From positions 186,001 through 250,000 of the forward strand of contig JADIIU010000006.1 in NCBI GenBank assembly GCA_027603945.1: a stretch of 64,000 nucleotides of DNA, read 5' to 3'. This DNA is from Terramyces sp. JEL0728 (taxonomy: Eukaryota; Chytridiomycota; Chytridiomycetes; Rhizophydiales; Terramycetaceae). A model generated the notes under the pieces. That model worked only from the letters and a program-made list of their open reading frames with translations, had not been told where the DNA came from and made no database searches. Position 1 is the first letter of the stretch, and each line of letters starts with the position of its first letter. Shown here piece after piece: positions 204-63,803 of this stretch. The translations under genes were made by a program, and so were the position numbers.

Positions 204-2174
204 ATGGATTTGAAAAAGCTACAGCAAGGTACACCAAAAATAATCAAGATGCGCTTTTGAAGATGATCAACCTGAATCAGGAAATATCTGATTCGGAAAT
301 AATATGGAAGGTGCTCATATATGACAAATTTGGACAGGATGTTATCTCGCCATCACTTCGATTAGGAGAATTAAGGTCATCTGGAATTACCCTGCATATG
401 TACTGTTTAGCTTAACGTCAGGTCATTAGCCAGTGATAGACAGCCCATCCCCGATGTCCCTGCTATCTATTTCCTTGAACCAACTCCAGAAAATATCGCA
501 AATTTAGGAGAGGTAATTGAAAAGTAATGAATTAGGATTTAAAGAAGCAGCTGTACGATTCGTTTTACATTAATTTTACATCAACATTGCCAAGAGCACT
601 AATGGAGGATTTGGCTGCACAAGCAGTTTCAACAAATTCGCAGCAATTAATCTCCCAAGTCTACGACCAATATTTAAATTATGTTTGCTTGGAACCTCAA
701 TTGTTTTCGTTGGAAATTCCAAGAGCTTATCAAATATTAAACAGTCCAACAACGGCAGAATCAGTAATTGAAAGACTGGTGGACCAAATCGCCTCATCCC
801 TGTTCTCAGTAATAGTCACATTGGGAAATGTTCCCATTATCAAGTGTCCAAAAGGAAATGTTGCCGAAGCAGTTGCTAAAAAGTTGGATTCAAAGTTGCG
901 CAATAACATTTTGAATAGTAGAGCCAGTTTGTTTGCCAACCAAGTTCACTTGACTCGTCCAGGTGATTCTTACTAATTTAGTGTTGATACTCTTGGACAG
1001 GGACTTGGACCTTACTTCGTTGTTAACTCACACCTGGACATATTCTACACTTTTCCATGATCTACTGGACATGAAATTAAATAGAGTATGCTTTATGGCA
1101 GATGAAAAAGGCAGAAAGGTAGAAAAGAAATACGACATTGATGTTGCTGATCCATTTTGGCTAAAAAATGCTGCAAGTCCTTTACCAGAAGTTGGCGGTA
1201 CATTGTTTATAATTTAGTGTTTATTGATGAAGAAACAAAAAGCTACCACGAGCAGGTCAATCGAATGGGTGCCGATGCCGCTGATCCAAACGACTACTCT
1301 GCCACCACAGGAAGTCTAGCCTCTACAATGCAGAAATTGCCGGAATTAAGACTGAGACAAAAAGTACTGGATATGCACACTGTTGCAGCTACCTCATTAT
1401 TGAATGGGATCATGCAAAGACAGTTGGATTCGTTTATTAAGATGGAAGAATCGTTGGGAAAACTGACTACACCGGCGATTTTGCAAGTAATCAAAGAAGA
1501 GCAAAAGCTACCAGAAGACAAGTTGCGTCTAGCACTTGCATATATATTGTCGTGTGATGTCTCGAATGACGATGTAAACAAAATTGAAGCTGCATTATCG
1601 GAAATTGGTGCTGAAACTTCATCTATTAAATTCATCAAAAAGTAATATCAGTTAAACCTAGTATTCGAATGCAATTCAAAATGATGTCGACTGCAAATAC
1701 CCCCAGTCAAAGTACGGCATCAACCTCTGATCTACTTGGAGCTTTTTCGTCAAACTTTTCAAGAGTAATTCGATACTAATCAAGTTTACCGGTACTCTAC
1801 AAAACGCTGGCATCGGAGAAGGATTTGGTAATCTGATTGCTGGGGTAAAGAATATGCTCCCCACACGCAGCGAACTTGCAGTGACCAAAACTGTTGATGC
1901 AATTATGGAAGGGAGCGCTCCAGGAAGCGGAACGGAAGATTACTTGACGTTTGATCCAAAGGTTGCTAAACCACAGTTTTCAGCCAAGAAGCAAACGTTT
2001 ACAGATGCAATAGTATTTGTTGTCGGAGGTGGTAACTACACGGAATACCACAATCTGATGGAATACACCAATAGAGCAAGTTTGGTGAAAAAGTCGATTT
2101 TGTATGGGTCTACTGAGTTGCTCTCGGCAAAGAAATTTATTGAGCAGCTAGAAGAACTAGGAAAGCCATTATAA
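204..2174 (+). CDS. SLY1: SLY1-type Sec1/Munc18 (SM) protein
   Basis: SM-family protein that binds syntaxin-type SNAREs (Sed5/Ufe1 class) and promotes ER-Golgi membrane fusion. Visible family motifs are the N-terminal QDALLKMINLNQ, then IIWKVLIYD, DRQPIPDVPAIYF, FYINFTSTLPRALMEDLA, and LILLDRDLDL across an intron. Seven introns were placed at 229-248, 400-421, 513-535, 963-981, 1198-1217, 1642-1661 and 1765-1784, of 19-23 nt. Removing them leaves exactly 609 codons (608 aa; yeast Sly1 is 666). The start at 204 gives MDLKKLQQ directly before intron 1 and fits the family; an apparent earlier ATG at 137 reads through that intron. The 3' end is convergent with the zinc-cluster gene, stop codons 14 bp apart. 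Confidence 0.93.
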
Positions 2175-2188
2175 ATTACATCCGTTTA

Positions 2189-4573
2189 TTAATTATTTGG
2201 ATTCAAGAATGAATTTTGCATGTTGTTTTGGTGAGCTATTTGCTGTTCTGAGTTTACAATCGTCTTTAATTTGACCAAGTACTTTTCACCCAACGGCTTG
2301 ACTTGACCAATTCGCAATAATGCTGGATATACCCACGTATCAATTAATTTTTCGGTTTCCATAATTAATTGAGAGTTTTTTGTTGCTCTTGCCCCTAGAA
2401 GCGCGGAGGACGAGATGATAAAAATAGTAACCGCAGACTGGACGGTTGCTAGACCAGGCGATAGTACTGACGAGTGTGGAGATTGTTGTTGGACTTGATT
2501 GACTGGAGTATTTGGAGCAGACTGGAATAGCGACTGATTAACTGGCACTGGAGTGTACATGGACTTTATGATAAACACCAAAATTCGAAGTGTGATCACC
2601 AAGATTTCGGCGGAGCTGTAAAGTTCCATTTTCATAGAGTTGAGCGGGAACTTGTAATTTGCTTGTACAATTGGCAAGTGCAAGTAACAGAACGAGCAAA
2701 GGTATACCAAAAAGTCATGGTTAAACGATATAAATGAGCGCCAAACATTGTTAATCAGCAAGTTATTATTGTTGGATACAAATAGATCTAGAGAATTGAA
2801 TGGCTTGAATATCGGTGGGAGTTCATCAAATATTTGCAACAACGATACGTGCAGTGTTTGGTAGTTATCATTTGGATAGCGATGGGTTGCTCCGGATGCA
2901 ATTTCCCTTGAATAGCGTAGAGTTCGTCTAATTAATCTAATCATTGGCAATCTAAACTTGATAATCCCGGCAGAATAGTGCAAGGAAGCAATTGCCGCCA
3001 TTTCCTTGATATCGTCAAATGCTGTCGCCATGGGACTATATTCAGTAACAAATTACCCTCCGCACCAAATAGAGTTTCTAGCAGAAAGCGACTTGCACAA
3101 TCTGTTGAACTTTAGTGGGTGGTCGAATCTATACGATACTTGGGTGAAATCTAAAGCTGGACATCTAAAACTATCAGGAAATTTGGTTTCGTCCATAATA
3201 AATGGGTTACCAGAAGCCATTGAAGTGAATGTATCAACCGCCAGACATTCTTCCCAAAGCGAAAATCTTTCTTTGATTTCAACATCCGAGAGCTTTGGAA
3301 TCATTGGTTTCGTGGATGGGCCGCCATAATCTTCAAGAGTCAAAGACAAATCTATCGAAGGTCCAAGTGGGGCTAGTGGGGGGTTGAAGATTGAAATATC
3401 AAACAGCTGGTACTTTTCGATACATTGCTTTACAAGGCCTTGGTTAAATCTATCTACCTGAAATCCTAATTGCCTCGGATCCTTTGCCTATGGCCATGTA
3501 ACCTTCAACAGCAATTATTAGGGCTCTGATACAATCGATCAACTCTAGTTCAGATGACGGTGTTGCTGGGATCATCTTTTCTGTTTGTTTCAAATACAAC
3601 CCAACTACGATTCGCCTTCCATCCTCAGGATCACCCTTGGATTCCGACAACGTAATAGAATTTTCATGGTTTTGTATTATTGAAAGTAAATAAGGATGGT
3701 TTGAATAAAACACTCCGTGGGAGCACAGAGCCATTCTTAACGATTGATGTACATTTTTTTGGTGTGGAGAGTAGTTTTCGCCCAATAGCAAAGACAGTCT
3801 ATAATTCGTTGTCAATCCACAATACAATAGCCCCAATCTGATCAAGTGAATCTCAAATTCCTCTTCATTTGGCCCGATGGGAGCCAAATTCTGATCGTTT
3901 TGAAATGATGGATTATACGTGGACGATGGAACATGCGGAGACGACGGAATATGCGCTGATTGAAGGATAGAGTAAGGAAGGGCGTTGCTCTGTCCAAAGT
4001 TTAAATTGGGCAGGGTCCATTTGCTATTTCCTCCATCGCGTATAATATTTTCCAAATCGCCCATAGCATTCATATCTTCTTTTGCTACTGGATTTCCAGA
4101 AGAGTCATTGGATTCCTCTTGCCATTCGTTTACCGCATTTCGTGTAGCCTCAAAGGAATTCAATAGTGCGTCCACTCTTTGTTCCATTGGCTGCTTTGAA
4201 GCCCATTGATAGGTTGCTTCATTTTTGTCCATCTTCTTTAAGGGGTGCAGGATTGACTCCAGAGATTCTAATCGCTGCAGCAACGTGTCTTTATATCCTT
4301 TTTTCGGACCTCGTTTTTTGGTGACTGCTGAATACGTGCACACTGGATTGCCATCTACAATCAACATGTCGAATACCTGCATCTCTTACAGTAGTTTTAA
4401 CACAATTTGAACAATAAGGAATTTTGCCATCACACTAAAATTTTAGCAACGAGGTACCTTTCGTTTTCTTGTGCGACAACCATCACTAGAAATTAATATT
4501 TCAGTTACCAAGCTCTGTTTGGCTTTTGTGCTTCTTCGTGCGAATCATCTTCTCGTTCTTGGTTTGGGTGCAT
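2189..4573 (-). CDS. Zn2Cys6 fungal-type transcription factor (TF1)
   Basis: Sequence-specific nuclear regulator of the Gal4-like class, about 758 aa after five introns of 19-23 nt are removed (span divisible by 3). The start at 4571-4573 gives MHPNQEREDD and then a binuclear cluster: CDGC, a basic six-residue loop, CDGKIPY, CSNC, a 13-residue loop, and a final C before TYSAVTKKRGPKKGY. The 13-residue loop is longer than usual. One intron splits the first Cys codon (TG|T) and another lies just before the third Cys. The remainder is a long helical regulatory region typical of fungal_trans proteins. A second factor at 25368-27733 has nearly the same length and a similar cluster, so the two are probably paralogues. 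Target genes cannot be inferred. Confidence 0.88.
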
Positions 4574-4679: not shown

Positions 4680-7600
4680 TTATACGTTGAATACCAACTC
4701 CAACCCATTAATGCTTATCAATCTCACAGACCTTTCTCCGGTCCAGTGAAATTTCACACTGTCCAAGACATGTCGGGCATCTATTTCGGAATTTGGTGCT
4801 CCCAAAGGAAAAGTTCTAAACGCAGTTACCCGAGATACACCCAAAGGTAGCTGCATTCCAATTTGCTTTGGATGCTGAGCGCCAGAAAACACGCCTGCCA
4901 GACTCTCTAAAAAGCCAGAAGATGGTTGCCAAAACGATATCTGATTGCTCTGCAGATGTAGCGTTGCGATCAATTTACCGTTGGGCGAGAAAGATATCCC
5001 ATGTGCCTGGCTTCTAATACCCTAATATTAACTTCAACTACCTCTAGTAAATTCAGCTTTGTTGCAGTTCTGAGGTCAAAAATAATGCATGATCCATCAA
5101 CTGTCCCAACTCCCAATCTTTGAGTGGCAGGATGGAATGCAATCGAGGGAAATATCTTGACCAAGTCTGCAAAGTTTACAGTGACAATGTCCTGCAAAGA
5201 TTCTCTCACGGTCGGGTGGTTTGGATCAAGCATCTTCACCATCGCTTCGACCATAGGCTGGAGATGGTTAAACAACAGAATCGGTTTCTGCGTTAAATTT
5301 GGGATACCTTGGCAATAAATAGTCCAAGCAACTTTAGCCCGCCAACCCTTTCCCAGATATCTTTTGCATGAAGTAGATCAAAGGTCAACGTGCTGATAAA
5401 TAATCCAGTGTTATAATTTGCAATTGACAGCAGAGCTTGTCTTGCCATAATCATACTCGGAGGAGTAATTAAAGGTGCCCCTTGAACGTTTTGCTGTCCT
5501 GTCAAGCCAGTCAGTTGAACTAGACATCTAATAACCGACGATCCATTCAGATGAGGCTCCCAAGATTTGAACCCACTGCCAATAATTTCGATAGCAAGTA
5601 ATCTGTACGGGTTCTTTCCAGGATCTCGGATTATCAACTCTAAAGATGTAGAGACATCTTTCGTTACTCTCAAAGGCAAAGCTGGTGGAAGCAGGGAGCC
5701 AATCAAAGCTAAAATAATCGTAGCGCGACAGCTAGTTTTCGATTGGATCGGGGGTATCAACGGCACTAATTTAAGTTGAATTTACTGAATTTGGCCCAGT
5801 AGTTTACAATTGATTGAAGTTTTTCTTCCGAAGAATTAGTAAGCACTGTTGAAACAACAAATCTCGCTGCTTCCTGCACATCGCCTAAATCAACTCGCAC
5901 TTACTAATCGCATCCTGCCAAAATTTAATCAGAAAAGAAAATGATGGAATTAAAGTGCTGCTATAATCCACGATTGTCCCAAACTGTCGAATTAACTTTG
6001 AAGTATCCATAGACAAGTTATAGTTGGAAACAAAAGATCGCAATAATGCAATAATGGTCAGTAATCTTTGAGCAGATAAATTCGGGCTGTATGTCCAATC
6101 AATGCGGGGATTCGTTGGGGCTTGTTGGATTGGAAAAGATAAATACCCGCCGGCTCTTATAATTAGCTTTTAAGTACCCCCTGATACCAATGGTTAGCTG
6201 ATGCGGTTTGGACAGCTTCAATTCATTTGAACAAATATTGTCTAATTCGGAATCAATACCCCAAGATATAATGCTTGAAAACAAATTGGAGGCAAGGACA
6301 TGGTCGGGTCGAGAACCTCTGGCACTTTCTATCGCAACGCTTGGCTCTACTTTGGCCTCAGGCTTTGTGTGCGTCAATTTTTTCTGCAAATAGTGGATTG
6401 GATTATGATGTTTCTCGGTTGGTGCTGGTGCAAGCTTTGCTCTTTCAAATGCCGGTGATCCGTTTATGCTTCCTGTTGGCGAAGTGTCTTGTGAATTTAA
6501 TATCTGTTCTCCATTATACATTTCGTCGATGAGTTTTTTCACATTTATCAAGGCAACAGCTACTATGGGGGTTGAATCTAGATTAACGATAATTACTTTT
6601 TTTTGTATTTTGAGGGAAGCATGCGACCGAAATGGTATTTCTCGAATGCAGGATGGTGTCTTGCGCTGATACGCTTGATTAGTATTGGCTACTTGACTTT
6701 GGCAATGCTGGAGGATATAATCTCTTCAACTGACCAGTCCCTGACAACCCGGTCCAAATTTCCTGTTTTCATCTTGATTAATTAACGATATTACATGCCA
6801 GATGTGCAAGGATCCGTCTATACAATGAATCATCATCAGATAATGATCAACCGTTCTCCAATATACTGCACAAATTTTGTTTTTATGGCCAACAAAAGAA
6901 ACACTGCAATTACATCACAGATACCTCGTTTTTTCTTCGAGATGAATAAGTCCCACAGAATTGTCCCGTGCGATTGACAATGTAGATGTTTTGTATTTTC
7001 CTCCAACTTCAGGAGGCACTTGTACAAACCCAGTTACGCTTTGAGAGTGATTGTAAAATGTGCCCAATGTTTGCCCAGAACTATCTTAATCTAAACTTAC
7101 AGGGAATTCCACATAATAACTTTCCCGCTTGTGTCACCGCTTAGTAATATATTTTTTGGGGACTGCCCATTTTCCGGCACAAACAAACAAGAAATCGAGC
7201 TGTTGTGGCCCAAAAGAATCCGAACGGCTGTTTTCATCCAATAATTTTGATCTTCCATTAATATGGTAGTTTGAGGCACAATTGCAATTGATCCGTCAGC
7301 TATTGTTAAAAATTCGCAACCAAACCCGACCGCAACATACTTTTTGAGCAGCGCTGCCATAGTGGTATACTGGACGGTCTTTGTCCCGATTATCCATAAA
7401 TCTGCCATATTTATCACTATATGAGCTATCTCATACCTTTTTTGGTATCAAATTTTAGGGTTAGAGCCTCTTCGCTGCCTCCTGTCATCCCCGCTGACAT
7501 GTTTGATCCAAATAAGCTCGCCCAGAAGTTTGTCAATTTTACTTTTACCGATTGCAGATTATTAGTGGTGAACGAAATCAGTGATTGCTGTTGAGAATTT

Positions 7601-8735
7601 AATGACGACAAACAGAGCTTCAAAGTCAATTCGTCTTGTGATGGGAATGTACCAATACAGGTTGCTTCCCTTTGGTTAAATAGACATACTTGCAAGACTC
7701 ATATTTACCGATTTCCAACTTTTCCACAACCACTGCTCCAGATCCGTTGGACACCAAAATTATACACCTCGGTGGAATACTTGTGCATGAATAATACTTT
7801 AGGTCCAGAGCAGATCCAAGATAATATATATATGATGGACCGCGGGTACTCCATATCAAAATTGTTCGTGCTGATAAAAATTTAGCTCCTTGGAGGTCAG
7901 AATCTAATTTGATGCGGACCAGGGATTGCAATTCAGAGTGGAAAATCTATAATTACGCAGCAATAACTTGACAATGATCCAATTCAAGTACAAAATAAAT
8001 GTTTGTATCGTATTTGTTGATCTGCAAATCAACTGTATTTCCCATAATGTGGTTTGGTAACTGGAACGATGCGATTTTTGCATTTCCAACACATTTCATT
8101 GTTGTAGTATCTAAAATCATAGAGTGTATCATTCCATCCGCATCCAATAATAGCATGCTATCCGCATCTTTTTTCTCTGTTGTTCTAATACTTGCTGCTA
8201 CAATCCATGTTCCGAATAAATCAAATGAATTAACCACCTGGGTTAGCGAAAAGTAACCTCCAATGATGCACCATCAAGAATAACTAAATAATTACTCTCG
8301 CCATAGCATACCAAAGCACCTGACGAATGAATCTTTTTTAGATATAGCGTACCAAAACTCCCTGCAGCAGTCCCTGAACCGTACTATCTTTTGCTTGGCG
8401 AGTCTGTAAACATTGTCCGTCTAATAAGTGCCATAATGCGATATCGCTTAATTAATAATGGAATACCCGGTTTCGGTTATTGTAATCAATGCATTATCTA
8501 AACTGTAGGCTTCTTCCAATTCTATTTGGTAACAGAGCAGTGCTGTTATAGAGTTGGGTGGGCCTATGCAGTAGATATGCGGTTCCAGTACCTCATCATT
8601 CCATTTGTGTATTATAATTGACCCATCTGACATTCCAGCGACTATCTTATCGCCCTCCTTGCTGGAGGTTACACTTGTTATTCTCGAATTTGGCGGTGCC
8701 TGCCATGATGCCTTTGGAATTGTGAGTGAAGCCAT
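4680..8735 (-). CDS. WDR7: WDR7 / rabconnectin-3-beta-like WD40 protein
   Basis: Large WD40 protein of the rabconnectin-3 complex, which regulates V-ATPase assembly and vesicle acidification. The N-terminus (MASLTIPKASW...) begins a first propeller; a second block carries ILLGHNSSISCLF, SGDTSGKVIMWNS and CAVYWRTVDHYLMMIHCIDGSLHIW. The middle has the family-specific ISWGIDSELDNIC. The end has AFHPATQRLGVGTVDGSCIIFDLRTAT followed by SFWQPSSGFLESLAG, as in animal WDR7. At least eleven 19-22 nt introns were placed by frame continuity, plus one apparent 26-nt intron near 6120. Budding yeast lacks this subunit, although its alpha partner survives as Rav1. The exon structure around 5.8-6.2 kb is the least certain part. 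Confidence 0.87.
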
Positions 8736-8871: not shown

Positions 8872-11070
8872 TCAGTATTCGAATTCGTCGTCTTGTATGG
8901 ACACAGTATTCAAATTCTGGGCATTGTAAAACTCTGCAACTTGAATCATAGTGGTAGCATTCTCTGGAGTTTTATCATCTCTTACACGAATGAATCGGGG
9001 GAAGCGAAGTGAAATCCCTTTGGTAGAGTCCACAATACCAATTGCTGCTTTATGCACTGGCGAAATGGACAAATCAGCAGCCTTGACTTCCCAGACAACA
9101 CTTGGTGAAAACCACACATCAGGGCGGACATTTGGGCTGTCGCTGATATTGTAGTATGAAGGAGGATAATCAATTACCTGTTGTTTTAGCAATTTGTAAT
9201 TTTCTGCCAAATTCTCATCAGAGAAGCCAGTTGCAATCTAATCTAAGCACTAATTACTTTGCAAATACTTTGGTATTCTTCCTTGTCATCATCGTAGCAA
9301 GCCAGCAGATATGCCCCATAAGTGCCAGTACGTTTACCTTTGCCGACAAAGGCACCAATAACAACTAGGTCCAAAGAGTCTCCCATTCCATTAATGTAAT
9401 CTTTTTTCACTTTGAGCCAGTTTCTAGATCTTTTGCTTGGCTCGTACGAAGCTTCTACTTCCAGTGTTTTCACCTGCTGTTAGTAAAAGTTACCATTAAT
9501 CCTTCACAGTTACCGGCAATGGAAGCATCCAAAAAGTTTTGAATATCATCGACAGTGCTCGTTTCCATACTCTTGGCAAATTCAAACTGTCCTGGAAATT
9601 CTTTAAAACTAGCATTAAGCAATTCTCTGCGCTTTTTTAAAGATTCTTTAACTAATGCTTTGCCATTTAGATACAATAAGTCAAAAGCAAATATACACAC
9701 TTGCACTTGGATGTCCTTGGTCTGGACATCCTTCCTTTTTCTGGTACTGAGAACTTGAAATGGCAGAATGCATTTCTGCTTAGCATCCCACGCAACCGCT
9801 TCGCAGTCCAGTACGAAAGATGTAATTCCAGAGTTGATACAGGAGGGCATTCTCTCAATAATATCAGGATATTTCTCTGACAAGTTTTCGCTGTTTCTAG
9901 AGTAGACCATCACCCTTCCGTCTTCCAGTAGGTGGATCTGAGCCCGTTCACCATCATATTTGTATTCACAAGTGAATGCAATTCCGTCAAATCTGTTTAA
10001 AACATCGGTCAAACTCTTTGTTGGATGTGCAAGCATAGGTTTCAATGGGATCCCAGGCGACAGTTGACAATGGTTTGTTAATTCTCTAGAGCCATACTGG
10101 AGCAATGCTGGTATAATCATGTCATAACTTGGAATTTCGCTACAATTAAAACCCATTACCTGAATACTTGTTTCACAATTGCAACGGTCTCGGCAACGTA
10201 AGCTGGTCGCTTTGACTCGCTCAATTTCAAATATTCTACATTAGCCAAGCTGTACCAGGCTCTTTCTGTGAAATTGCGTGAGACAGCGCAACTAAAATAG
10301 TTTGGTGTGCCAGTCCAATTCTCAACTTTCCTTCCAAAGATCTACATTAATAGCGAATACCTAATCAAGTACTTTGGCTCGTTATTTTGACATGCAATCA
10401 ATAATTTTCCAATCAAATCAACCTTCCGCTGTTGGGACTAAATCAGCTACAATATACTGATGTTCCACTAAAATTCGAAATCGTTTTCAAAGCTTCAAAT
10501 ACAGAATTGACAGTGTGAGGTTTTGGCTTCATCATCATCATCTGCTTCCCCTTTGATGCCTGGGCAATAGTTCCCAAATCACCTTTTTCTTCCATATCCG
10601 CTTTGATTGATTTTACATTTCTACCAGTAGCCCCAGCAAGGGCTTTCATCAACAATGATTCCCCAATCCCCAATTCCTTTCCGTCGTACTCTGGCCCAAT
10701 CTATATTATCGCGAATTACCCTGTTCAAACATAAATAAACACTAGAAAGCAAACTGTCCGGGACTGTTTCAATCACGCTAACAAAAAACTTTGTTAAATA
10801 AGAAGTGATTTCCAAGCGCTTTGTGGTATTTTCTATCTTTTCAAATGTCTCACACAACGATCCATATGAAATTACTGTCTGATCAGATTTCTTTTCCTCT
10901 TCTTTCTTTGGATCATTCTCTTTACCAATGATTTCTTTTGGCTTTGGTTTCTTTGGAGACGCCTTCATTTCATCTGCTTTCGGCTTCTTTGCATTGATTG
11001 CCACCTCCTTCTCGATCCCTCTTTTAAGTGGGTTGAAGAATGAGCTGATGGTTGGCTGTTTCTTTGACAT
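8872..11070 (-). CDS. CDC9: ATP-dependent DNA ligase I
   Basis: Seals Okazaki-fragment and repair nicks by adenylyl transfer. The N-terminus [12 protein letters not shown] contains a textbook PCNA-interacting PIP box (Q5 to F12), followed by a Lys/Glu-rich linker and the ligase N-terminal domain. The catalytic motif [12 protein letters not shown] has its adenylated Lys codon at 9959-9961. The C-terminal OB-fold region ends [16 protein letters not shown]...QDDEFEY. Introns of 19-20 nt were placed at several points between 10.1 and 10.6 kb; the Met of the apparent open frame that begins at 10156 lies inside an intron and is not a start. The start at 11070 is chosen because it places the PIP box at the extreme N-terminus. 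It is divergent from DSCC1 with 51 bp between start codons. Confidence 0.93.
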
Positions 11071-11121: not shown

Positions 11122-12359
11122 ATGTTGGACTGCGAAATCTACTTTGGAGATAATGCACTTCCACCTCAGGATGAACAACAAAATCCAGACAAGAGTATCA
11201 TGCTGCTGCAAGTGCCAATGGAAATCGCAAAGAGGATCGAAGCCGGAGAAGAGTTTCATTTTAGAGGAGATCGAAATGATGAAGCTGTGCTATGCACTGA
11301 AAACAAGACTTTTAAAATTCGATACGCAGAAACATCGAATTTGATGCTTGTGCTAAAAGAACCTACTGAAAAATCTATCGAACCAGACTTTCTCTGCGAG
11401 GATCAAGAAATGGATGACCCAGATAATGCAGAAAAGGAAAATAAGGACAAATCACTTGATCTGTCAAGTGCGTACATGTCTCTATTCGGAAAGAAACAGC
11501 TTGCACATGAATCGCTAGTTATTGACTCTGGAAATGTTTTCTTGGATCTAGTAGAAATCAAACCAAATTACGATTCCTTATTCAACAAATTAGCGCTTTA
11601 CAAAGGAGAGGAAACAGAATATCAACAAGAAATGGTTACAACAAACGATATTTTCCAATTTTGCCAAGCTTCAGAACAAGAAATCAAAGAGTACCTGCAA
11701 TCTGTGGAAGCAATCGAGTTGAAAGGATATTGGAGGTTACTAGATGTAGAATACCAATCTGAAATACTAGAGTTGATACTTTTGACTTTGCTGGAGCATG
11801 ATTTACCAATGGATAACGTGCCAGCCCAAGTAATTGTTGATAGTCTTAGAGAATATGAGCATTTGGACATAGTGATTTTACATGTGCTGCGTATTCATTC
11901 AAACCCCGACAGCGACATTATAGCACTTGATGAACAAAAGATTTGCAGGACTTTTGGACATGTGGTACTAAAAAAAGGAGATAATGTAATGCTACTAAAG
12001 TCATTCATGTTAAAGTGGAAAACAATGGTTCCGGAACTATTCGAGATTAATCTGGACTTTTTGAATGTAAAAATAATTAATTCAGGGACTATTTTTGTTG
12101 GAGAAACACGGCGTTGAACCTACAATCCGCTATTTCCCAAAATATATTTTACCGAGTAGTCCAAAACTGCGATTTAAAGAGCTGTTTAAAATTAGACAAA
12201 AGTGGGTGAAGGAAGATGTGTTTTATTATAGTAATTGATGTTAATTTAGTCCAAGATTTTGCAAAGACAGCCAAAGAACTCGACCCCATCATAATGAAAT
12301 ATGCCAGAGTTTCAAAGGAAAACAGAGTAACATATCTCAGCAGCAGGAGCCATTTCTAA
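11122..12359 (+). CDS. DSCC1: Sister-chromatid cohesion protein DCC1
   Basis: Subunit of the Ctf18-RFC alternative clamp loader with Ctf8, acting in cohesion establishment and PCNA loading. The N-terminal part carries FHFRGDRNDEAVLCTENKTFKIRYAETSN, close to animal and yeast Dcc1, and the C-terminal winged-helix region reads GVEPTIRYFPKYILPSS...FKELFKIRQKWV. Two 19-nt introns at 12067-12085 and 12231-12249 are required; without them the frame stops at 12117. Removing them gives 399 aa (human 393). Its promoter region is shared with DNA ligase I, another replication-fork gene, so co-regulation is plausible, but I see no MCB-like element in the gap. Confidence 0.9.
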
Positions 12360-12420: not shown

Positions 12421-13441
12421 TTAAACCTTAACTTCACGAGCAGCAGCCTTAGCACGCTTTTCAGTCTTCATTTGGGATTTGAAGCCCATGACACCACCAC
12501 CCCAGTGCTTGCGGGATTCTTCAAACTTGTCGTTGAAGTTGACCTTGATAGCAGAGATAAGAGCAGCAAATTCCTGCTTGTCTTCTGGCTTGACATCAGT
12601 CAATGCAACAGCAGTAGCAGTCTTCTTGTGGACAAGTGTTCCCAATCTGGACTTGGACTTGACGATAGCATATGGGACACCCATCTTTCTGCAGAGAGCT
12701 GGCAACCAGACGACCAACTCAATTGGGTCGACATCGTCAGCAATGATGACAAGGGAAGCCTTCTTTGCTTCGACAAGAGCAGTAATGTGGTTGATACCGT
12801 ACTTGATGGTGACTGGCTTCTTTCCTTGGTCAACCTTTCCGCCGGCAGCAGCAGCTTCAGCAGCAGCAGTAAGACGAGCCTTCTTTTCAACCTTGGTTTC
12901 TGGGCGGTACTTGTCAAAGAGCTTGAAGAGCAAAGTGGCAGTGTTCTTGTCCAAAGCCTTGCTGAATTGGGCAATGGATGGCGGGACCTTCAATCTTTGC
13001 TTCAAGATAGACTTTTGGCGTTGCAAACGGACATACTCAGGCCACTTGATGTATCTAGAAAGGTTTCTAGCAGGTTGAATGTCTTGGCCAATACCAAAGT
13101 TTCTTGGGGTCTTTTCCAACAATGGGTTGGCGACCTTTCCAGAGGTCTTGCTCTTGATGGCATACGGAGCAGCAGCAACTTTCTTTCCCTTGACGGCAGC
13201 TTTTGGCTAAGATTAGAACAACCCTTTAAAAACCTCGCAAGCCATAACGGCTGCAAATATGAGTCATGGGAAACAAATCAACTTGCGTTGCTTTGATCCT
13301 AATGTACGATTGTACACGAGAGAAAGTATTAATACTTTCGATCATTGGAGCTGTATTTCTACAACTCCTAAAAGGGTTTTGTTCCATCGACCACATTTGG
13401 ACTGCAATTCATGACTTGCGGGAGCTGTCGCTACTTACCAT
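12421..13441 (-). CDS. RPL8: 60S ribosomal protein eL8 (L7Ae family)
   Basis: Large-subunit protein with an L7Ae RNA-binding core. Motifs include [28 protein letters not shown], and [27 protein letters not shown]. The preferred model has a one-codon first exon: ATG at 13439-13441, a consensus GTAAGT donor, a 232-nt intron (13207-13438) ending CTAATCTTAG, then CCA AAA GCT. It encodes [18 protein letters not shown] and 262 aa in total, matching the MPK...GKKV start of animal eL8 and family length. An alternative start at 13245 needs a 27-nt intron with a poor GTTTTT donor and adds MACE, which does not match the family. The intron is about ten times longer than any other seen here. Confidence 0.92.
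13207..13438 (-). ncRNA. Oversized 232-nt first intron of RPL8 with three tandem hairpins (candidate intron-encoded RNA)
   Basis: In transcript sense the intron contains GGAGUUGUA-GAAA-UACAGCUCC (plus-strand 13347-13368), a 9-bp stem capped by a GAAA tetraloop. It is followed by an 18-nt perfect palindrome (13322-13339) and a 5-bp stem with a 4-nt loop (13303-13316). In other eukaryotes eL8 introns host snoRNAs. I could not find good C/D boxes (no CTGA) or a convincing H and ACA box pair, so the RNA class is unassigned. It may instead be an autoregulatory splicing structure. Confidence 0.4.
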
Positions 13442-15059: not shown

Positions 15060-15922
15060 ATGAGTAGACCAGAACATACAGCTCCACCAGAAATAGTTAA
15101 TGATAACTAACCGCAGTTTTATAATGATGTAGAAGCAAAGAAATATACACAAAATTCTCGTATTATCTCGATTCAGAACGAAATGTCTTATCGTGCAATC
15201 GAACTACTAAATCTACCAGACGACAAAATTTGTTTTATTCTTGATATTGGATGTGGGTCTGGATTATCTGGAGATTGCTTAGCAGACGAACAGCATGTCT
15301 GGGTAGGAATGGATATATCAAAGTCAATGCTTGATGTTGCGGTTGAAAATGAGAGCGACGGAGACTTGTTTTTGCAGGATATTGGTCAAGGCATGGGATT
15401 CAGACCAGGCACTTTTGATGGGTGCATAAGGTTTTTATTTTTAATTCCAGTATTTCGGTAATTCAATGGTTGTGCAACGCCGATAAACAATCTCATGAGC
15501 CAAAAAAGAGACTAAACAGATTCTTTACTACGCTGTTCACGGCAATGACGAAAGGTGCCAGATGCGTATTTCAGTTTTATCCTGAAAACCCATCTCAAGT
15601 TGAAATGATTGTTTCCTCTGCAATGAAGGCCGGTTTCAGCGGAGGGTTGGTAGTCGATTTTCCAAACTCTACCAAAGCCAAAAAATACTTTTTATGTTTA
15701 TTCGCTGGCGCTTCCATGGTTCAAGATTTGCCAAAAGCTCTTGAGGGCGAAGAAGGTGTCAGATATTCTGGCCAGACTATAAGAGAACGAAAAACAAAAA
15801 GTAGGAAAGCAGTAAAGGATAAGAACTGGGTCTTGAAAAAGAAGGAAACTCGACGAAAACAGGGTAAGCCAACAGCGAATGACTCTAAATACACTGCAAG
15901 AAGACGTAGACCAACTTTTTAA
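15060..15922 (+). CDS. BUD23: 18S rRNA (guanine-N7)-methyltransferase BUD23
   Basis: SAM-dependent enzyme that, with Trm112, makes m7G near the decoding region of 18S rRNA and is needed for 40S export. The N-terminus [19 protein letters not shown] is diagnostic and needs a 21-nt intron (15096-15116). The SAM motif is [12 protein letters not shown] second intron (15431-15450) restores [11 protein letters not shown]. Further matches are [13 protein letters not shown] and [13 protein letters not shown], and the C-terminus is basic, ending [12 protein letters not shown]. Spliced length is 273 aa (yeast 275). The stop codon lies 16 bp from that of the convergent UBP14. Confidence 0.94.
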
Positions 15923-15938
15923 TATAATTGTATCCGAA

Positions 15939-18180
15939 TTAATTTATTCTTCTGAATACGTAAACATAGGCATCGGCAGCTAAATCTGCAACCTTAGATT
16001 CTGGTACAAGGACAACCTTTTCATCATTGTACAAGATCCATTCGTCACCTTTCTTGATGCAGGTAACATAATGCCCGCAGTGGGCAGAGGTGCCCTTATG
16101 AGATATGAACGAAACCAGTCGGTACTTTGACGGGCCATCGTCATAAACTACCTTTTTGACTAGAGTTGGATCAAAATCTGGATGGCTGAACAACCAATCA
16201 ACAGCACGCTCGATATCATTATTCTACATTAGTACTCGACTACAGTCTGCTTCATTGCGTACTCTGCTTGGGCTCGAGTAAATCCCATATCCATCAAAGG
16301 TCCAAGCTGCGCAGTAGTATCAACTTTGGCTGTTTCCAACGGCGAGTCCAAATCTTGTTAACTAAAATTACTTGGGTCATCCATATGTTCAAATAGCCAG
16401 TTCATTGCTACTTCTGCACCATTGTTTCCAGTATTCAAGAGCGCTCTTTTGGCACGGTTTTCACTGAAACCCATTTGTAGCAACGAATCTACAGCAGATT
16501 GATCGAATGCGGGGCCTTGTTCAACCTCTGGGAATAGTTTTTCTCCTTTCTGTTCGACGGCTTTGTATTCCTTCAAATCCAACTCAAACGGAATATTAAT
16601 TTTAACATCTGGTGTTAAACACTTATACCTAACTTTTCCATCACCCATCCCTCACCTAAAATAAACCGATTCATTGTTATAACTAGATATTCGGGGAAAG
16701 TTTCGATAGCATTGACTATCGTTGAACTAGTTTTCGCCTTGTCAGTCGGGCAATTGAACTCACGGATATCGGCGGTAAAGTATTGGGCTAGACAATCAAA
16801 GAATTCAACATTTTTGTAAATCTTCTTTGTATCTTGGACGTGGTCAAGAATAGCAGGCACAGGGAGTGATAATCCAGTCGCTTCGTTCCTGTTGTATTGA
16901 ACGTGTTCGCATTCAATGCACTGCAAACGTTGCTGTTGTCTAAATTTAAAGACCATGCTTGGATCACCACCACTTTGCTTTTCCTGCTTTTCAATCATAT
17001 CCAGATAAAACCCAAGGAATTCTTGGGCATCTTGTTGCCTCATGCTGTTGAATTCTTGACTTTCTTTTCCAATAATTTGTTTGATCATCAAAGGCGAAAC
17101 TGACTGATACTTGCCAGAGTATAATCCATTCGCCAATTTTTGCGTTTGGCAGGAATAACAATCTTGTGGACGGCTTTGACATGTAGAAAAGTGATATTCT
17201 GACGGATCAAAATATTTCTCGTGGAATTGCGGTATAGCGAACAAGGTTTGGAACACAGATGCCATATAGCAACTACAGTAAGCACGGATTACCTATTACC
17301 AAGATTCTTTAATCCAGTAAATCCACTTCCGCTTTTACCAACCATTTCTACACCATCATCTGTGACCATACTAAAGTCAAACTTTAGGTTTTGTTCCAAC
17401 TGCATTTCCAACAGCGACTTGCTGGTTTTTTCTTGTGTTTGAATGTTGATTCCAAATTTGTGCAAGTGATTTGCAAGGTTTGGGTTTAAGATTTCGGTTC
17501 CATGTTCATAGCAGAAAACATCCGCAGTGCCTTCTGGAGTAATAGTGCCCATTTTAACAACCAGTGGATGTCTAGTCTTTTCATAGTGAGCAATACCGTG
17601 GCTGTTTCCCCCAACTCCACCGTATTGCTGTCTCCCGCAACCCAGATTACCACAAGTCAAACATAGCCATAAATTATCTTTCAGCTCGCAGTCTGCACAA
17701 GACGCCAACGCTACTGTTAACGAAACATACATTTTTGCAAAACTTGGCCACCTTCTTGGATCAAATCTACGTGAGAACAGGACTGTAATTCTTGCTCCTG
17801 CCATGACTTCATCTCTTGCTGAGTCTTGTTGGAAGTTGCATTCATAATTTTGGATCTGATAGTGTCATTTTCAATTACAGTAGAGCATTTTTGGCATTGG
17901 ATAATTGAGGTGTATTCCTGCTTTTCTTCAGTAATTTGAAGCTTTGTGATTTTTTCCGGTCTATTTTCCGATTGAACCTATATTATTTCAATAATACTTT
18001 GCTAACGATCATTGCTAGGTAGTGGCCATACTTTCCAGAGTGAACTTTGAAATGATCTTTGCATCCAGAAAAGTAACAGTCGAGACAGATATGAACGAAA
18101 TCGTCGTCGTAGCAGTACATGCATTCTTCCCGGTACACTGTTTGATTTTTATATTCTTTAACTTTGTGATTGCAAGACAT
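15939..18180 (-). CDS. UBP14: Ubiquitin carboxyl-terminal hydrolase UBP14/USP5 (isopeptidase T)
   Basis: Disassembles unanchored polyubiquitin chains. The order is an N-terminal Cys-rich finger (ECMYCYDDDFVHICLDC), a ZnF-UBP (CADCELKDNLWLCLTCGNLGCGRQQYGG), the Cys box GLKNLGNSCYM, the region with UBA domains (DSLLQMGFSENRAKRALLNTGNNG...AMNWLFEH), and the His box SAHCGHYVTCIK near the C-terminus. Introns are about 20 nt; one splits the Ser codon just before the catalytic Cys, and another (17711-17730) ends in CAGTAG, where the frame demands the second AG. The start codon at 18178-18180 overlaps the divergent ATG of the CENP-X-like gene. Confidence 0.92.
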
Positions 18181-50167: not shown

Positions 50168-50463
50168 ATTTGTGGGTTTCAGTTCTAACAGCCTGTACCG
50201 ACTGAATTACAGGAGCCAAGGTTTGCAAAGCCGTATTAGCCAATAGTAATACAAAGGGAACATAAATGGCGTGGTCAACTTCTGCAACTCGTTGATGGCG
50301 TTCTTAATTATTTCCTGCTTCAATTCATCCAGCAAGCAACAAGTACCTTACATTCAAAGCTCAAGTAACTGAGAGTTTTGTAGATAATCATTAGTTGAAT
50401 ATATAGTAGGCAATTTATGTCTTGTTGGCACATCCCAAACAAATTTTTCACTTCAATCGTAAA
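50168..50463. other. Gap between chitin synthase B and MIC26/27 with coding-like minus-strand frames
   Basis: A 296-bp divergent interval, long for this region. On the minus strand two frames look protein-like: DELKQEIIKNAINELQ, and, shifted by one base, VDHAIYVPFVLLLANTALQT, continuing to a TAA at 50155-50157 inside chitin synthase B exon 1. I could not link them with a normal intron. A small unrecognised gene or a base error is possible. Confidence 0.3.
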
Positions 50464-50989
50464 ATGTCGTTTCCTGAAGCAAAAAAAGCAAGAATAATCT
50501 AACTGTAGAGTATATACAGTGAAAAGGAATCGCCAATAGTAAACCCAGAGGTTCCTTCCGAACTTGAATTGATTATTAGACAAGCAAGACATGAAATTAC
50601 AGGACAATTTGCTTCAACCAGAAAGCAGGTCCAGTCAGTTGTAGATGTATGGATCGCACAAGAACAAGCAGCAGCAAAATATATTTCATATTACCACGAC
50701 AAGCGAGAACCTTTTCTGCCTGGATTGATTTACGTCTCCATTGCTGGATTTGGTGGATCCATCTTTACAAAGAACAGTAACTATCTTTGATTTAGGAAAT
50801 ATTTTTGCAAGAGCAACTGTTCCACTTTCGCTGATGGCTGCTACTTTTGGCTACCACTTTCCCTCCACATTCCTTAATCTCGCTTACAACAGACCGAACG
50901 ATCCTTCTCAAACACTGCCTAAATTCCAGACTTTTGATATTCAAGGCAAGCTTAGGGATTTGCTGAAATCACTTGGATTTGAAAAATAA
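50464..50989 (+). CDS. MICOS subunit Mic26/Mic27 (apolipoprotein O-like)
   Basis: Inner-mitochondrial-membrane subunit of the MICOS crista-junction complex. The first exon is only eight codons (MSFPEAKK) and is joined by a 21-nt GC-AG intron (50488-50508) to SIYSEKESPIVNPEV, re-creating the (K/R)KSIY...P element of the family. Then come SELELIIRQARHEI, a first membrane segment LPGLIYVSIAGFGGSIF, a 19-nt intron, and a second membrane segment ATVPLSLMAATFGYHFPSTF. Spliced length is 161 aa. Orthology to Mic26 versus Mic27 is not resolved. Confidence 0.82.
50488..50508 (+). other. 21-nt GC-AG intron in MIC26/27
   Basis: Donor AAA|GCAAGA, acceptor TGTAG, branch-like TCTAAC. Removal joins codon AAA to AGT and gives the conserved KKSIY. 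No GT donor lies within reach. It is in phase 0 between exon 1 (24 nt coding) and exon 2. Confidence 0.8.
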
Positions 50990-51100: not shown

Positions 51101-51533
51101 ATGATGATTTTCAAAAGGCTTTTTCAATCTTCAACAAAAGCAATGGGTGTAACAAAGACAGTAATCAGAGCAGGAAACGGATCCAACTTCCCAAAGAAAG
51201 TAAGTATCAGTTAAACGAAGGGAGATACCGTCACCATGCACTACACCGGAACATTTAAAGATGGAGGAAAGAAAGTATTTTAGATCTAAGCTAGTTTGAT
51301 TCTTCAGTTGACAGAGGAGAGCCATTTGTCACTCAAATCGGAGTTGGCCGTGTAATCAAGGGTTGGGATGAAGGTGTTCCACAAATGTCTCTCGGTGAAA
51401 AGGCAGTCCTTGATATTACCTATGACTGTAATTGTTTGTTAATCTAGATGCATATGGTGAAAGAGGACACCCAGCTGGAATCCCTCCAAAGGCTGATCTT
51501 AAATTTGAAGTTGAGCTGTTAAAAATCAACTAA
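51101..51533 (+). CDS. FPR1: FKBP12-type peptidyl-prolyl isomerase
   Basis: Cis-trans prolyl isomerase and FK506/rapamycin receptor. Core motifs: [79 protein letters not shown]; the ligand-pocket aromatic and Asp residues are present. Three introns at 51200-51220, 51275-51294 and 51428-51447 give 109 aa from the Met at 51143, the usual cytosolic length. An in-frame ATG at 51101 adds 14 residues ([14 protein letters not shown]), basic and amphipathic like a mitochondrial presequence, so two isoforms by alternative initiation are possible. I give the longer extent. Confidence 0.93.
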
Positions 51534-56828: not shown

Positions 56829-56901
56829 GGTTCCGTGGCCAAATGGTTACGGCGTTGGACTTCTAATCCAAAGATTGCGGGTTCGATCCCCGCCGGAATC
56901 T
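56829..56901 (+). tRNA. tRNA-Arg(UCU), copy 3
   Basis: Identical 73-nt sequence to copies 1 and 2, anticodon TCT, intronless, followed by a T5 run. It ends 73 bp from the stop codon of the convergent thiolase-like gene. Confidence 0.96.
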
Positions 56902-56974
56902 CTTTTTGCAAGTTTAGTTTCAGTAAAATGAGAAATTCGCAGCACAATTAAATAAATATATGGGTTTAGTTAAA

Positions 56975-58367: not shown

Positions 58368-59488
58368 ATGTCTGTAGCTGCGCAGGATGTTAGAAAGGTA
58401 CTCACAGTAGTAATTTCAGGCTGTTCCAAACTCATACGTTGGATTTGACACCATCACAAAGCAAATCGAATCAAAATTAGTTAAACGAGGATTCTCTTTC
58501 AATATTATGGTTGTTGGTATTTGACGTTTAAATCCAGGACGTTCCGGGCTAGGAAAATCGACTATGGTCAACACTTTGTTTGCTACACACTTGGTTGACT
58601 CTAAAGGAGTGTCTCAAAAGCAAACTACAGAAGTATCTACCACTACAGCTAGTACATAGTAAATAACAGTAGTTCTCGAAGAAAACGACGTCCGCTTAAA
58701 GTTATCGATCACAGATACTCCAGGATACGGAGACCAAGTCAACAACGACGCTTGGTATATTTAGCTTAACACTAGCTGGGAGCCAATAATCAAATACATC
58801 AAGGACCAATATTCTTTATATCTCAGAAAGGAGCTGTAATTCGCGATTTATTTTAGTACTCCGCAAAGAGAGCAGAGAATACCAGACACACGTGTTCATG
58901 TAGTATTATATTTCATTGCACCAACTGGACACGCTTTGACTCCTCTAGATATTACGGTGATGAAGAAGATTTCAAAGTTTGCCAATGTTGTCCCTGTTAT
59001 TGCAAAAGCGGATTCATTGACTCTTGAAGAAAGACTGGCTTTCAAAAAGCGGATTAAACAAGAAATTGATTTCCATGGAATAAAGACTTATCCATCTGCA
59101 GATATGGATGACGAATTCAACATTCCTGGAAGTGAAGCAGACAGAGCAAACAAAGCTGCTATTCAAAACTTGAAGGTATTTCATTTTAATCCGAGAATTT
59201 GGTTCCATTCGCAGTTGTTGGTTCAGAAAAGAATGTCGCCGATGCAAGCGGAAAGGCAATCAGAGGTAGAAGAACCCGCTCCGGCATCATCAATGGTTAA
59301 TATTGCTAATCGTAGTTGAAGACGAGACCCACTGTGAATTTGCACAAATGAGAAACTTTTTGACTAGAACCCACTTGCAAGACTTGATTGAAACCACAGC
59401 AATGATTCACTATGAAAACTTTAGAACCAGACAGTTGCTTGCTTTAAAGGAATCCACCTCGATGGGTGCCAAGCCAGCTGAAGAATAA
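58368..59488 (+). CDS. CDC10: Septin, CDC10 class
   Basis: GTP-binding filament protein of the septin ring. The P-loop GRSGLGKST is split by a 21-nt intron after its first Gly base. Further motifs are the G3 TDTPGYGD, the G4 AKAD, and the C-terminal HCEFAQMRNFLTRTHLQDLIE...YENFRTRQLLALKES, very close to yeast Cdc10. It lacks the C-terminal coiled coil, as Cdc10 does. Seven introns give 324 aa (yeast 322). One intron (58652-58669 or 58652-58672) ends in CAGTAG and could use either AG in frame. The start at 58368 is MSVAAQDVRK. Confidence 0.93.
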
Positions 59489-59540
59489 TTCATAATAAAA
59501 TCCTTGGGAATTACAATTAAAATACGACTGTATTTATTAA

Positions 59541-60967: not shown

Positions 60968-62609
60968 TTATTCTCTTGAAATATCTCTGCCAAACAAATT
61001 CTTTTTGGTCCAGTCAAATGCGACCAAACATCTATTTCTGAATGCAAAAAGACTAGGTTAGTGTAATCCTACTTGCTGAGATACGCAGATCTCCAGAAAA
61101 AGTGTGTCAATACACCGGTAGATTTGATTCCAAACGGTAAATCTGCGATAGCTCTGTCTGAACCAATATATCTACATTACAATAAACTTACGCCAAAGAT
61201 CCCATATGCTCATAGTTGAATGGTCCTACCATTTCTTTTGCTCTCTCCAAATCTTGCTTTGGATCTTGTCCAAGTGCATTAAACATTTTTGCTAAATATC
61301 TTCCTTCGCCAGACGCTACTTGAGCAGTTGGAGCGTATCTATCATAAAACGGCGTTTACTTTGTTGCAGACGCATCACCCAGTGAAAATACCCAATTACA
61401 TCCCTTCACTTTTAAAAAGTCGTCAACAACAATGCCTCTTCGCAAGTTTTGCTCGGTTGGGGAAAGTGATTTTATGAAATTGGACACTACCGGTCTTGGT
61501 GTGTTGCCTGTTGCCCAAACCAATAAACCGTAAGGGATTGTCTCCAATTCTTTTTTGCTGTTTAATACAACAATGTGGTCTTTTTCAACCGTCTTGACAG
61601 CAGTGTTTTTCATGAGTGTGATATCGCTACGAGCCAAATGGTTTTCAGTATATTCAATTAATGACTTTGAAAACATAGGAAGTACATTGGGCAAAGCTTC
61701 TACTAGTGTGATTTTAATCTTTTCGGCAAGATGCGGATACCATTCCAACTATGGTTATCAGAGATTACCAAATCATCAATCAAAAAGTCGTGTAGCTCGG
61801 CGGCATATTCTACTCCTGTTGGTCCGCCGCCAACAACTACCATATGCAGTAATCTCTTGACTTCTTCATCTGGTTGGCCAGGGAACGCGGCAGATTCAAT
61901 CGAATCCATCAGCTTTGTTCTGATCTTTCTAGCATCCCTGCATTAGAAATAAATACCATGCTTCTTTCAAAAAGCATCCATGTTCCTTGACACCTGGAAT
62001 CCCGAAAGTAGCATTTTCAGATCCTGTTGCAACAACCAAGTAATCATACGGAAGAGATCTTTCAGAGACCAACCCGGTGACTTCAGAGTTGTCTTTAATA
62101 GTGATTGTTTTGGCTTCTGAATCGATATTCGTGCAATCTGCCTCTACAAACATGACTTCCCTGTTTTTGAATCTGGTAATGTATCTTAATGGCTGCATGA
62201 TACTGCGCAATTCAATAGTCCCGACGGTGCAGCTAGGTAACAGCGGAGTGAATAAGAAATAGTTTCTAGGACTAACCATAATCTTTAATTACTAATTGAT
62301 TACCACATTGAAATTCTCTGTATCTAAATCCTTTAAAAATGAAGTTGCTGCCCATCCAGATCCTAAAATCGCCAAGGTCTTTTTTGAAGGATCAAAATTG
62401 AATTGTTCTGGTGGATGTCTAGCGCTATATATTTCTGATATTAGAATGACTGTACCATATAATCCCAATGTGAGTGCACCACCGGCGCCTAAATACAGTG
62501 ACCATTTGAATAATCTACCTACGAATGACTTTTTTGGAATTGATTGTGTACTGGCAGCTCTTGATTTTATTTGCGCGAATGAGATGACCTTTTTGAACAT
62601 GATTTTCAT
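60968..62609 (-). CDS. NDE1: Alternative (type II) NADH:ubiquinone oxidoreductase
   Basis: Non-proton-pumping NADH dehydrogenase. A basic presequence ([20 protein letters not shown]) and a membrane segment ([20 protein letters not shown]) are followed by the FAD-binding [13 protein letters not shown]. Next come [18 protein letters not shown], the NADH-binding [19 protein letters not shown], and the C-terminal region [20 protein letters not shown]. Six introns of 19-21 nt give 506 aa (yeast Ndi1 513). The membrane segment right after the presequence favours an external-facing NDE enzyme, but Ndi versus Nde is not certain. No EF-hand is seen. Confidence 0.9.
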
Positions 62610-62850: not shown

Positions 62851-62881
62851 TTACACCAGTTTCAAATTTTCCGCTCGCATT

Positions 62882-62958
62882 TGACTCTGTCTGACTCTGT
62901 CTGACTCTGTCTGACTCTGTCTGACTCTGTCTGACTCTGTCTAACTCTGTCTGACTCA
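62882..62958 (+). promoter_or_regulatory. 10-bp-periodic array of TGACTC (Gcn4/AP-1-like) elements
   Basis: TGACTC occurs at 62882, 62892, 62902, 62912, 62922, 62932 and 62952, with TAACTC at 62942; the unit is ctgactctgt. The last site is TGACTCA, the canonical bZIP Gcn4/AP-1 core. One copy per helical turn would put all sites on one DNA face. It lies about 140 bp upstream of the ribosomal protein gene RPL10. It may instead be a neutral minisatellite. Confidence 0.6.
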
Positions 62959-63100
62959 CGCAATCAATTGGTTTTCCTCTCTTCATTTCAGCATTAAGTC
63001 GGAGAATTTACAAAAAATGGACCAATCACCGCACGGCAATCGCAGTGGCGCTCGTTTTTTTAAAGTTGAACATTTTCCTCTTGTTTTTCACTTTTCAAGA

Positions 63101-63803
63101 ATGGGTCGTCGTCCAGCAAAATGTTACAGGTAGATACAATTTAAGACTAGATATTGCAAGAACAAGCCATATCCAAAATCCCGTTTCTGTAGAGGTGTTC
63201 CAGATCCAAAAATCAGAATTTTCGATTTAGGACGTAAAAAGGCTAACGTTGATGAATTTCCATTGACCATTCACTTAGTTTCTGACGAATACGAACAAAT
63301 TTCTTCCGAAGCTTTGGAAGCAGCTCGTATTGCTGCCAACAAATACGTTGTCAAGACCTCAGGAAAGGACTCATTCCACATGAGAATCCGTGTTCACCCA
63401 TTCCACGTCGTTCGTATCAACAAGATGTTGTCTTGTGCTGGTGCCGATAGGTAAATATCCAATTAATTGCAGATTGCAAACTGGTATGAGAGGAGCTTGG
63501 GGTAAACCACAAGGAACTGTTGCTCGTGTCAACATTGGACAGGTTATCATGTCCATCCGTACCCGTGACAACAACAAGGCAGTGGTATACGAAGCTTTGC
63601 GTCGTTGCAAGTACAAGTTCCCAGGTCGCCAAAAGATCATTGTCTCCAACAAATGGGGCTTCACCAAACTTACTCGTGAAGAATACGTTGTCAAGAGACA
63701 AGAAGGTAAACTACTACCAGATGGTTGCTACGTCAAGTACCTCAACGAACACGGTCCATTAGTTGAAAACTTCAAATTGCAAAGAAGAGCCCAAAACGCT
63801 TAA
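63101..63803 (+). CDS. RPL10: 60S ribosomal protein uL16
   Basis: Large-subunit protein placed late in 60S assembly near the peptidyl-transferase and tRNA sites. The start [35 protein letters not shown] is diagnostic, then [32 protein letters not shown]. Two introns at 63130-63150 and 63451-63472 each split an Arg codon (AG|A) and leave 219 aa (yeast 221). Unlike RPL8, both introns have the short size usual here. Confidence 0.97.

Follow-up and report, generated by a model that had tools for sequence, protein, structure and literature searches.

Can a fungus carry introns of about 20 nucleotides (nt) as its norm? This question is raised by a 64,000-nt stretch of Terramyces sp. JEL0728, hereafter the window, which is part of contig JADIIU010000006.1 (C6 in our numbering; 252,070 bases) in an assembly of 15.0 Mb in 231 contigs. 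A reading made earlier from the letters of the window, without database searches (the sequence-only reading), had proposed that its genes are interrupted by spliceosomal introns that are nearly all 19-23 nt long, that this holds genome-wide, and that it is unusual for a fungus. The organism is indeed a fungus, a soil chytrid (Chytridiomycota, Rhizophydiales, Terramycetaceae), and 62 Zn2Cys6 matches and one Pfam-supported chitin synthase agree with this; a viral-contig scan and a plasmid search gave no match and were uninformative. Judged on sequence features, it is highly probable that the segments are U2-type spliceosomal introns, shortened throughout this compact chytrid genome until they are about as small as its spliceosome will accept.

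We sampled 264 kb, consisting of the window and a 10-kb stretch of each of the contigs C1-C5 and C7-C21 (20 in all), a set that is not random with respect to the genome. A two-strand gene finder was run in rounds. The first round combined coding statistics from long open frames with GT..AG ends and a flat length prior of 12-150 nt, with neither a length preference nor a branch motif supplied (the flat model), and later rounds were self-trained to convergence. Of the 211 introns that the flat model predicted, 116 were 19-23 nt long. When ten other end pairs were run through the same model as decoys, nine yielded 170-202 calls each, of which 10-19 were 19-23 nt long. The tenth, CT..AC, yielded 177 calls with 54 in that range, an excess that we read as the antisense of the same GT..AG introns, a position-by-position match not having been made. 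Hence the length peak was present for GT..AG ends, weaker for CT..AC and absent for the nine other pairs.

Self-training gave 418 introns in 215 gene models of any size, and the resulting length histogram bore out the 19-23 nt claim in the sample (402/418) as well as in the window (121/126), the peak having already shown in the flat model without length or motif input. The 126 window introns lie in 35 gene models, two of which are shorter than 60 amino acids (aa) and without support. Their lengths are 18 nt (1), 19 (17), 20 (64), 21 (22), 22 (15) and 23 (3), with 27, 34, 40 and 50 nt once each. Across the sample, the ten trained introns outside 18-24 nt (27 to 87 nt) are unconfirmed calls. All 21 contig stretches have introns in the narrow peak below 25 nt, the 20 outside the window holding 5 to 27 apiece, and the claim of a genome-wide distribution thus stands as far as sampled. 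Extrapolation by length from this non-random sample (418 per 264 kb, over 15.0 Mb) gives about 24,000 introns. Models of at least 100 aa carry 2.4 introns each, 77% have at least one, and they are closely packed, with a median spacing of 122 nt and 83% of the sequence coding. Even a plain count of GT..TAAY..YAG strings showed a peak, though a blurred one, at 20 nt, with 40 strings where 11.8 were expected.

Splicing in silico restored family-typical proteins. Five introns named in the sequence-only reading (SLY1 intron 4, DCC1 intron 1, BUD23 intron 2, FKBP intron 2 and RPL10 intron 1) were exactly reproduced by the independent gene finder, as were its codon counts, stop included, for SLY1 (609), DCC1 (400), BUD23 (274), CDC10 (325) and VAS1 (1041). 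We compared 30 junctions with 120 homologues of SLY1, 120 of CDC10 and 6 of a WD40 protein, with the strain's own record left out, and counted each homologue-junction pair as gapless if no gap fell within 4 residues of the junction. Over the three genes, 1615 of 1687 pairs were gapless; the weakest junctions were those at 6674-6692 (2/4) and 6578-6596 (1/5) in the WD40 gene. For a retention test, one intron at a time was kept, the protein was read to its first stop and the profile score was taken. SLY1 scored 841 bits spliced and at most 655 with any one intron retained, and CDC10 599 and at most 477. Over residues 1-211, the alignment of the spliced RPL10 model with a solved L10 (uL16) has no gap, and Pfam matches span some or all junctions in FKBP, DCC1, BUD23, the ubiquitin hydrolase and the NDH2-like protein.

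Deposited models of the strain and its relatives bear on the same junctions. Those of JEL0728 contain 15 of the 30, meaning that about half of the tested introns already stand in public gene models, unremarked as far as we found. Among the 246 homologues of the three genes there were 17 inserts of 4-9 residues near a junction, two of which can be read as GT..AG segments. One of these, rich in serine, sits in a metagenome protein and looks poor. The other is in the deposited CDC10 of Boothiomyces sp. JEL0866, which has 7 extra residues exactly at the 21-nt intron 3 of Terramyces; by hand, these residues also allow a GTAAY start and a YTAAC branch with its A at base 15. The SLY1 model of Boothiomyces macroporosus terminates at the junction of intron 6, an intron that in Terramyces would add one lysine and then a stop if retained. 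Both models look as if an intron had been left in. Together they suggest that the introns predate the split between Terramyces and Boothiomyces, the latter represented here by protein models, and that annotation misses them.

The anatomy of the segments was compiled from the 408 trained introns of 18-24 nt. After GT, the donor has A at +3 in 90% and at +4 in 56%, T in 42% and G in only 20% at +5, and T in 61% at +6, while the last exon base is G in 50%; GTAATT is the commonest donor (59/408), and past GTA the donor is weak. Of the flat-model introns, 122 are 18-24 nt long, and 96 of these carry a TRAY branch motif 4-8 nt from the end; in a control made by shuffling the interiors of trained introns, the share was 17%. 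The A of the motif is intron base 14 in 49 and base 15 in 38 of those 96 (87 together). In the trained set, 326 of 408 have the strict motif, 291 with the A at base 14 or 15. The branch site can be summarized as YTRAY with its A mostly at base 14-15, 5-6 nt from the last base, which leaves no space for a pyrimidine tract before the 3' end; A+T content is 70%. A donor-to-branch distance of 10-13 nt had been given previously, and its shortness holds, but from first G to branch A we measured 13-14 nt. Exon -1G and +4A were negatively associated (P=7e-6, one of five pairs tested), a trade-off that suggests pairing of the donor bases with one RNA, under which it would be expected.

The assembly also encodes factors that could act on such introns. 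It has one clear copy of U2 RNA with the branch-recognition sequence GUAGUA. SF1 (helix-hairpin, KH and zinc knuckles) and U1-C scored above their Pfam cut-offs. The U2AF65 search reached 251.7 bits on unspliced sequence, below the NCBIfam cut-off of 310.3, and the spliced model has RRM domains. The sequence-only reading had pointed to these factors as places to look for loss or change; SF1, a U2AF65-like protein and U2 RNA are present, but U1 RNA was not found in a search that had no positive control. Taken with the GT..AG ends and the branch motif at its fixed place, U2, SF1, the U2AF65-like protein and U1-C give strong support to the claim that the introns are spliceosomal.

How might so short an intron be recognized? 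SF1 and U2 would read the branch site, and U1 or U6 the short GTA-centred donor, while the active spliceosome, by its geometry, would fix the narrow donor-to-branch distance as a ruler. In humans, the A complex occupies 79-125 nt of RNA (PMC8363638). This is several times the intron size, so, as the sequence-only reading proposed, the U1 and U2 small nuclear ribonucleoproteins (snRNPs) would hardly fit together on these introns. Because 20 nt cannot plausibly hold both, recognition would be sequential or across exons, or would involve an early hand-over to U6. On short human introns whose pyrimidine tract is truncated, SPF45 takes the place of U2AF (PMC8363638). Deletion bias pushing introns against a size floor would account for the narrow length peak; this idea was stated for mikrocytids (PMC10245619) and fits Terramyces. 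A more specific version holds that Terramycetaceae have a fixed donor-to-branch ruler of 14-15 nt, that U1 and U2 are never together on the same intron, that recognition spans exons or the donor is handed directly to U6, and that changed U1 and/or U6 RNAs explain both the lost +5G and the failed RNA detection. We regard this full combination as unlikely.

Several points weigh against ultrashort spliceosomal introns. It is from genomic sequence that we infer that the spliceosome excises these segments from the RNA in the normal two steps. The strain's own records miss 15 of the 30 junctions in the three genes, a sign also that deposited chytrid gene models can be wrong. Near junction 2, the FKBP model is one residue longer than the solved FKBP that matches it best. 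The trained model also made calls on reversed sequence, 101 introns within 52.8 kb of spurious coding, so any single trained call is unsafe unless otherwise supported; reversed sequence is nonetheless a poor false-positive control because little of it was called coding. Among 14 prokaryote genomes used as controls, the U1-C family also exceeded its cut-off in one (E. coli), and the U2AF65 search gave below-cut-off matches in two. Finally, neither U1 nor U6 RNA was found in the assembly: searches used the Rfam model and two patterns for U1, and the Rfam model, a 2-mismatch core pattern and a DNA query for U6, in each case with no positive control.

These undetected RNAs, along with a +5G in only a fifth of donors, are what favors an altered spliceosome, for example one without U1 RNA or with a changed U6. 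This alternative is compatible with spliceosomal introns of minimal size, and we think it quite improbable. Since the searches lacked a positive control, the absence of U1 and U6 RNA is not established, and their genes may have been missed, lie outside the assembly, be interrupted or have diverged. Fungal U1 can diverge from the Rfam model. Moreover, U1-C is retained, and the trade-off between -1G and +4A suggests that the donor still pairs.

In the course of the U6 searches, two weak matches to the Rfam model were rejected as lying in a predicted coding gene. They are near-identical copies of one stretch (about 27 bits) on contigs C199 (L041:1501-1606) and C111 (L042:1501-1605), and the former overlaps an ultrashort intron of 21 nt. 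Two U6-core matches with 2 mismatches were rejected for want of an Rfam match. Rfam scans of the 20 non-window stretches gave no match at gathering level. Separately, the SF1 gene has a putative 15-nt intron near its C-terminal end (L040:1192-1206), which is below the usual size and was excluded from the counts.

Partial over-calling would mean that true introns are short but that a sizeable share of the 418 are self-training artefacts. The reversed-sequence calls favor it, as does the survival of only 3 of the 89 flat-model calls of other lengths after training. So does the scarcity of lengths divisible by three (86/408), 71 of which would bring in an in-frame stop if retained, although stop-free multiples of three are few partly because they are hard to see. 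Yet training kept 112 of the 122 introns of 18-24 nt that the flat model had called. Trained coding tables with a flat intron model gave 266 introns on intact sequence, of which 169 were 19-23 nt and 175 were 18-24 nt. After the 418 introns were excised, this combination made 5 calls instead of 266, even though the excised run had a more permissive penalty, and the trained model made 1 instead of 418. For Tetrahymena, artefact introns were reported to have many lengths divisible by three, few stops and a link to alignment insertions (PMC5014332), and the Terramyces pattern is the opposite. We hold over-calling on this scale to be very unlikely.

Removal after or outside splicing, whether by translational bypassing or by DNA elimination like that of ciliate internal eliminated sequences, is barely credible given that GT..AG ends, a GTA donor and a branch site placed 5-6 nt ahead of the 3' end are a signature of splicing, with U2, SF1, the U2AF65-like protein and U1-C at hand. 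Least credible of all is that the frame breaks are false indels of a draft assembly in 231 contigs, as errors would not share ends, branch motif and length, and the Boothiomyces JEL0866 CDC10 insert, codon-compatible with GT..AG, lies exactly at a 21-nt intron site.

Ultrashort spliceosomal introns, the reading we retain for Terramyces, are known elsewhere. Among the closest parallels is the heterotrich ciliate Stentor coeruleus, with introns of 15-16 nt genome-wide (PMC9505925). Both have a narrow length range, GT..AG ends, a branch A near the end and U2 with GUAGUA. In Stentor, however, the branch A is base 10-11 with a 5-nt tail and 18% of genes have introns, whereas Terramyces is a fungus with introns about 5 nt longer, a clear YTRAY and introns in 77% of models of at least 100 aa. 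Mikrocytos mackini shares very narrow, tiny introns (16-17 nt), but it is an obligate parasite with 224 introns and a much reduced spliceosome (PMC10245619), as against some 24,000 by extrapolation in Terramyces, which keeps SF1, a U2AF65-like protein and U1-C. Introns of the Bigelowiella chlorarachniophyte nucleomorph occupy almost the same range (18-21 nt, as cited in PMC10245619), in a relic endosymbiont nucleus rather than the main nucleus of a fungus. Those of Paramecium and Nyctotherus (about 25 nt; PMC5014332) and the type B introns of Trichomonas (23-25 nt; PMC12316389) are likewise ultrashort but slightly longer, and Trichomonas has few. Nearer to Terramyces, microsporidia, relatives of fungi, also have relatively short introns, but few of them, with reduced spliceosomes in obligate parasites (PMC10245619). 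Cryptococcus neoformans is an intron-rich fungus with short introns, those called 'ultra-short' being under 60 nt with a mean of 56 nt and a small population of 20-40 nt (PMC11913375). For Cryptococcus a mean of 63 nt is also given, and the C. neoformans norm is about 2.5 times longer than that of Terramyces.

Among the open-licence literature matches listed, of which excerpts were available, no report describes a fungus with 20-nt introns as the norm, in line with the earlier claim that they are unusual. To our knowledge, this would be the first case of genome-wide 20-nt introns in fungi. Terramyces would thus be an independent case of a known phenomenon, in a kingdom for which we found none reported. 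If true, ultrashort introns occur in an intron-rich chytrid that keeps the early splicing factors tested, unlike in parasites with stripped spliceosomes. Being near the smallest known for any organism, its introns are a test case for the minimum RNA needed in splicing. With them one can directly test how short the donor-to-branch distance may be, as well as models requiring U1 and U2 together on one intron. The window genes and introns are listed in Table 1.

Table 1. Genes and predicted introns in the window (window positions; homologue counts are gapless pairs; by eye, name assigned by eye).
Feature	Position	Strand	Support
SLY1 gene, 7 ultrashort introns, 608 aa	204..2174	+	gene finder, homologues
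SLY1 intron 1, 20 nt	229..248	+	76/80 homologues
SLY1 intron 2, 22 nt	400..421	+	109/118 homologues
SLY1 intron 3, 23 nt	513..535	+	118/118 homologues
SLY1 intron 4, 19 nt, GTGATTCTTACTAATTTAG	963..981	+	118/119 homologues
SLY1 intron 5, 20 nt	1198..1217	+	117/119 homologues
SLY1 intron 6, 20 nt	1642..1661	+	117/119 homologues
SLY1 intron 7, 20 nt	1765..1784	+	100/115 homologues
WD40 protein gene, 1243 aa, 16 introns of 19-22 nt	4680..8735	-	gene finder, homologues
WD40 introns, first eight	5022-5041, 5288-5307, 5766-5785, 5885-5904, 6156-6177, 6578-6596, 6674-6692, 6773-6794	-	
WD40 introns, last eight	6904-6924, 7081-7100, 7417-7436, 7670-7689, 7947-7967, 8238-8257, 8333-8352, 8447-8466	-	
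g05, DNA-ligase-like (by eye), 7 introns of 19-20 nt	8872..11070	-	gene finder
DCC1 intron 1, 19 nt	12067..12085	+	gene finder; within Dcc1 domain match
DCC1 intron 2, 19 nt	12231..12249	+	gene finder; extreme end of Dcc1 domain match
27-nt intron call, longer exception; ribosomal-protein-like gene (by eye)	13207..13233	-	gene finder
BUD23 intron 1, 21 nt	15096..15116	+	gene finder only; outside Pfam matches
BUD23 intron 2, 20 nt	15431..15450	+	gene finder; within methyltransferase match
Ubiquitin hydrolase gene, 6 introns of 18-20 nt	15939..18180	-	gene finder, Pfam
g13, 9 introns of 19-22 nt	18544..22748	+	gene finder
VAS1 (named in the sequence-only reading and by eye), 4 introns of 20-21 nt, 1041 codons incl. 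stop	30288..33493	-	gene finder
Chitin synthase gene, 7 introns of 20-22 nt	40116..42866	+	gene finder, Pfam
50-nt intron call, longer exception, putative	50459..50508	+	gene finder
FKBP intron 1, 21 nt	51200..51220	+	gene finder, Pfam, solved FKBP
FKBP intron 2, 20 nt	51275..51294	+	gene finder, Pfam, solved FKBP; one extra residue nearby
FKBP intron 3, 20 nt	51428..51447	+	gene finder, Pfam, solved FKBP
CDC10 septin gene, 7 introns of 20-22 nt, 324 aa	58368..59488	+	gene finder, homologues
CDC10 intron 1, 22 nt	58398..58419	+	104/117 homologues
CDC10 intron 2, 21 nt	58517..58537	+	116/119 homologues
CDC10 intron 3, 21 nt	58652..58672	+	117/119 homologues
CDC10 intron 4, 21 nt	58755..58775	+	119/119 homologues
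CDC10 intron 5, 21 nt	58836..58856	+	119/119 homologues
CDC10 intron 6, 20 nt	59176..59195	+	118/119 homologues
CDC10 intron 7, 20 nt	59296..59315	+	113/119 homologues
NADH dehydrogenase (NDH2-like) gene, 6 introns of 19-21 nt	60968..62609	-	gene finder, Pfam
RPL10 intron 1, 21 nt	63130..63150	+	gene finder; gapless to solved L10 (uL16)
RPL10 intron 2, 22 nt	63451..63472	+	gene finder; solved L10 alignment

Other features of the window were noted in passing. The product of g13 (1341 aa) has, by eye, WD40 repeats and a bromodomain-like end. A second chitin-synthase-like locus, also named by eye, lies at 47253-50167 in the opposite orientation to the one in Table 1 and is split into two models. 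A 324-aa protein with a fasciclin domain is encoded at 54935-55948. Three tRNA-Arg(TCT) genes with equal Rfam scores fall within 750 bases at 56159-56902, one of them on the opposite strand.

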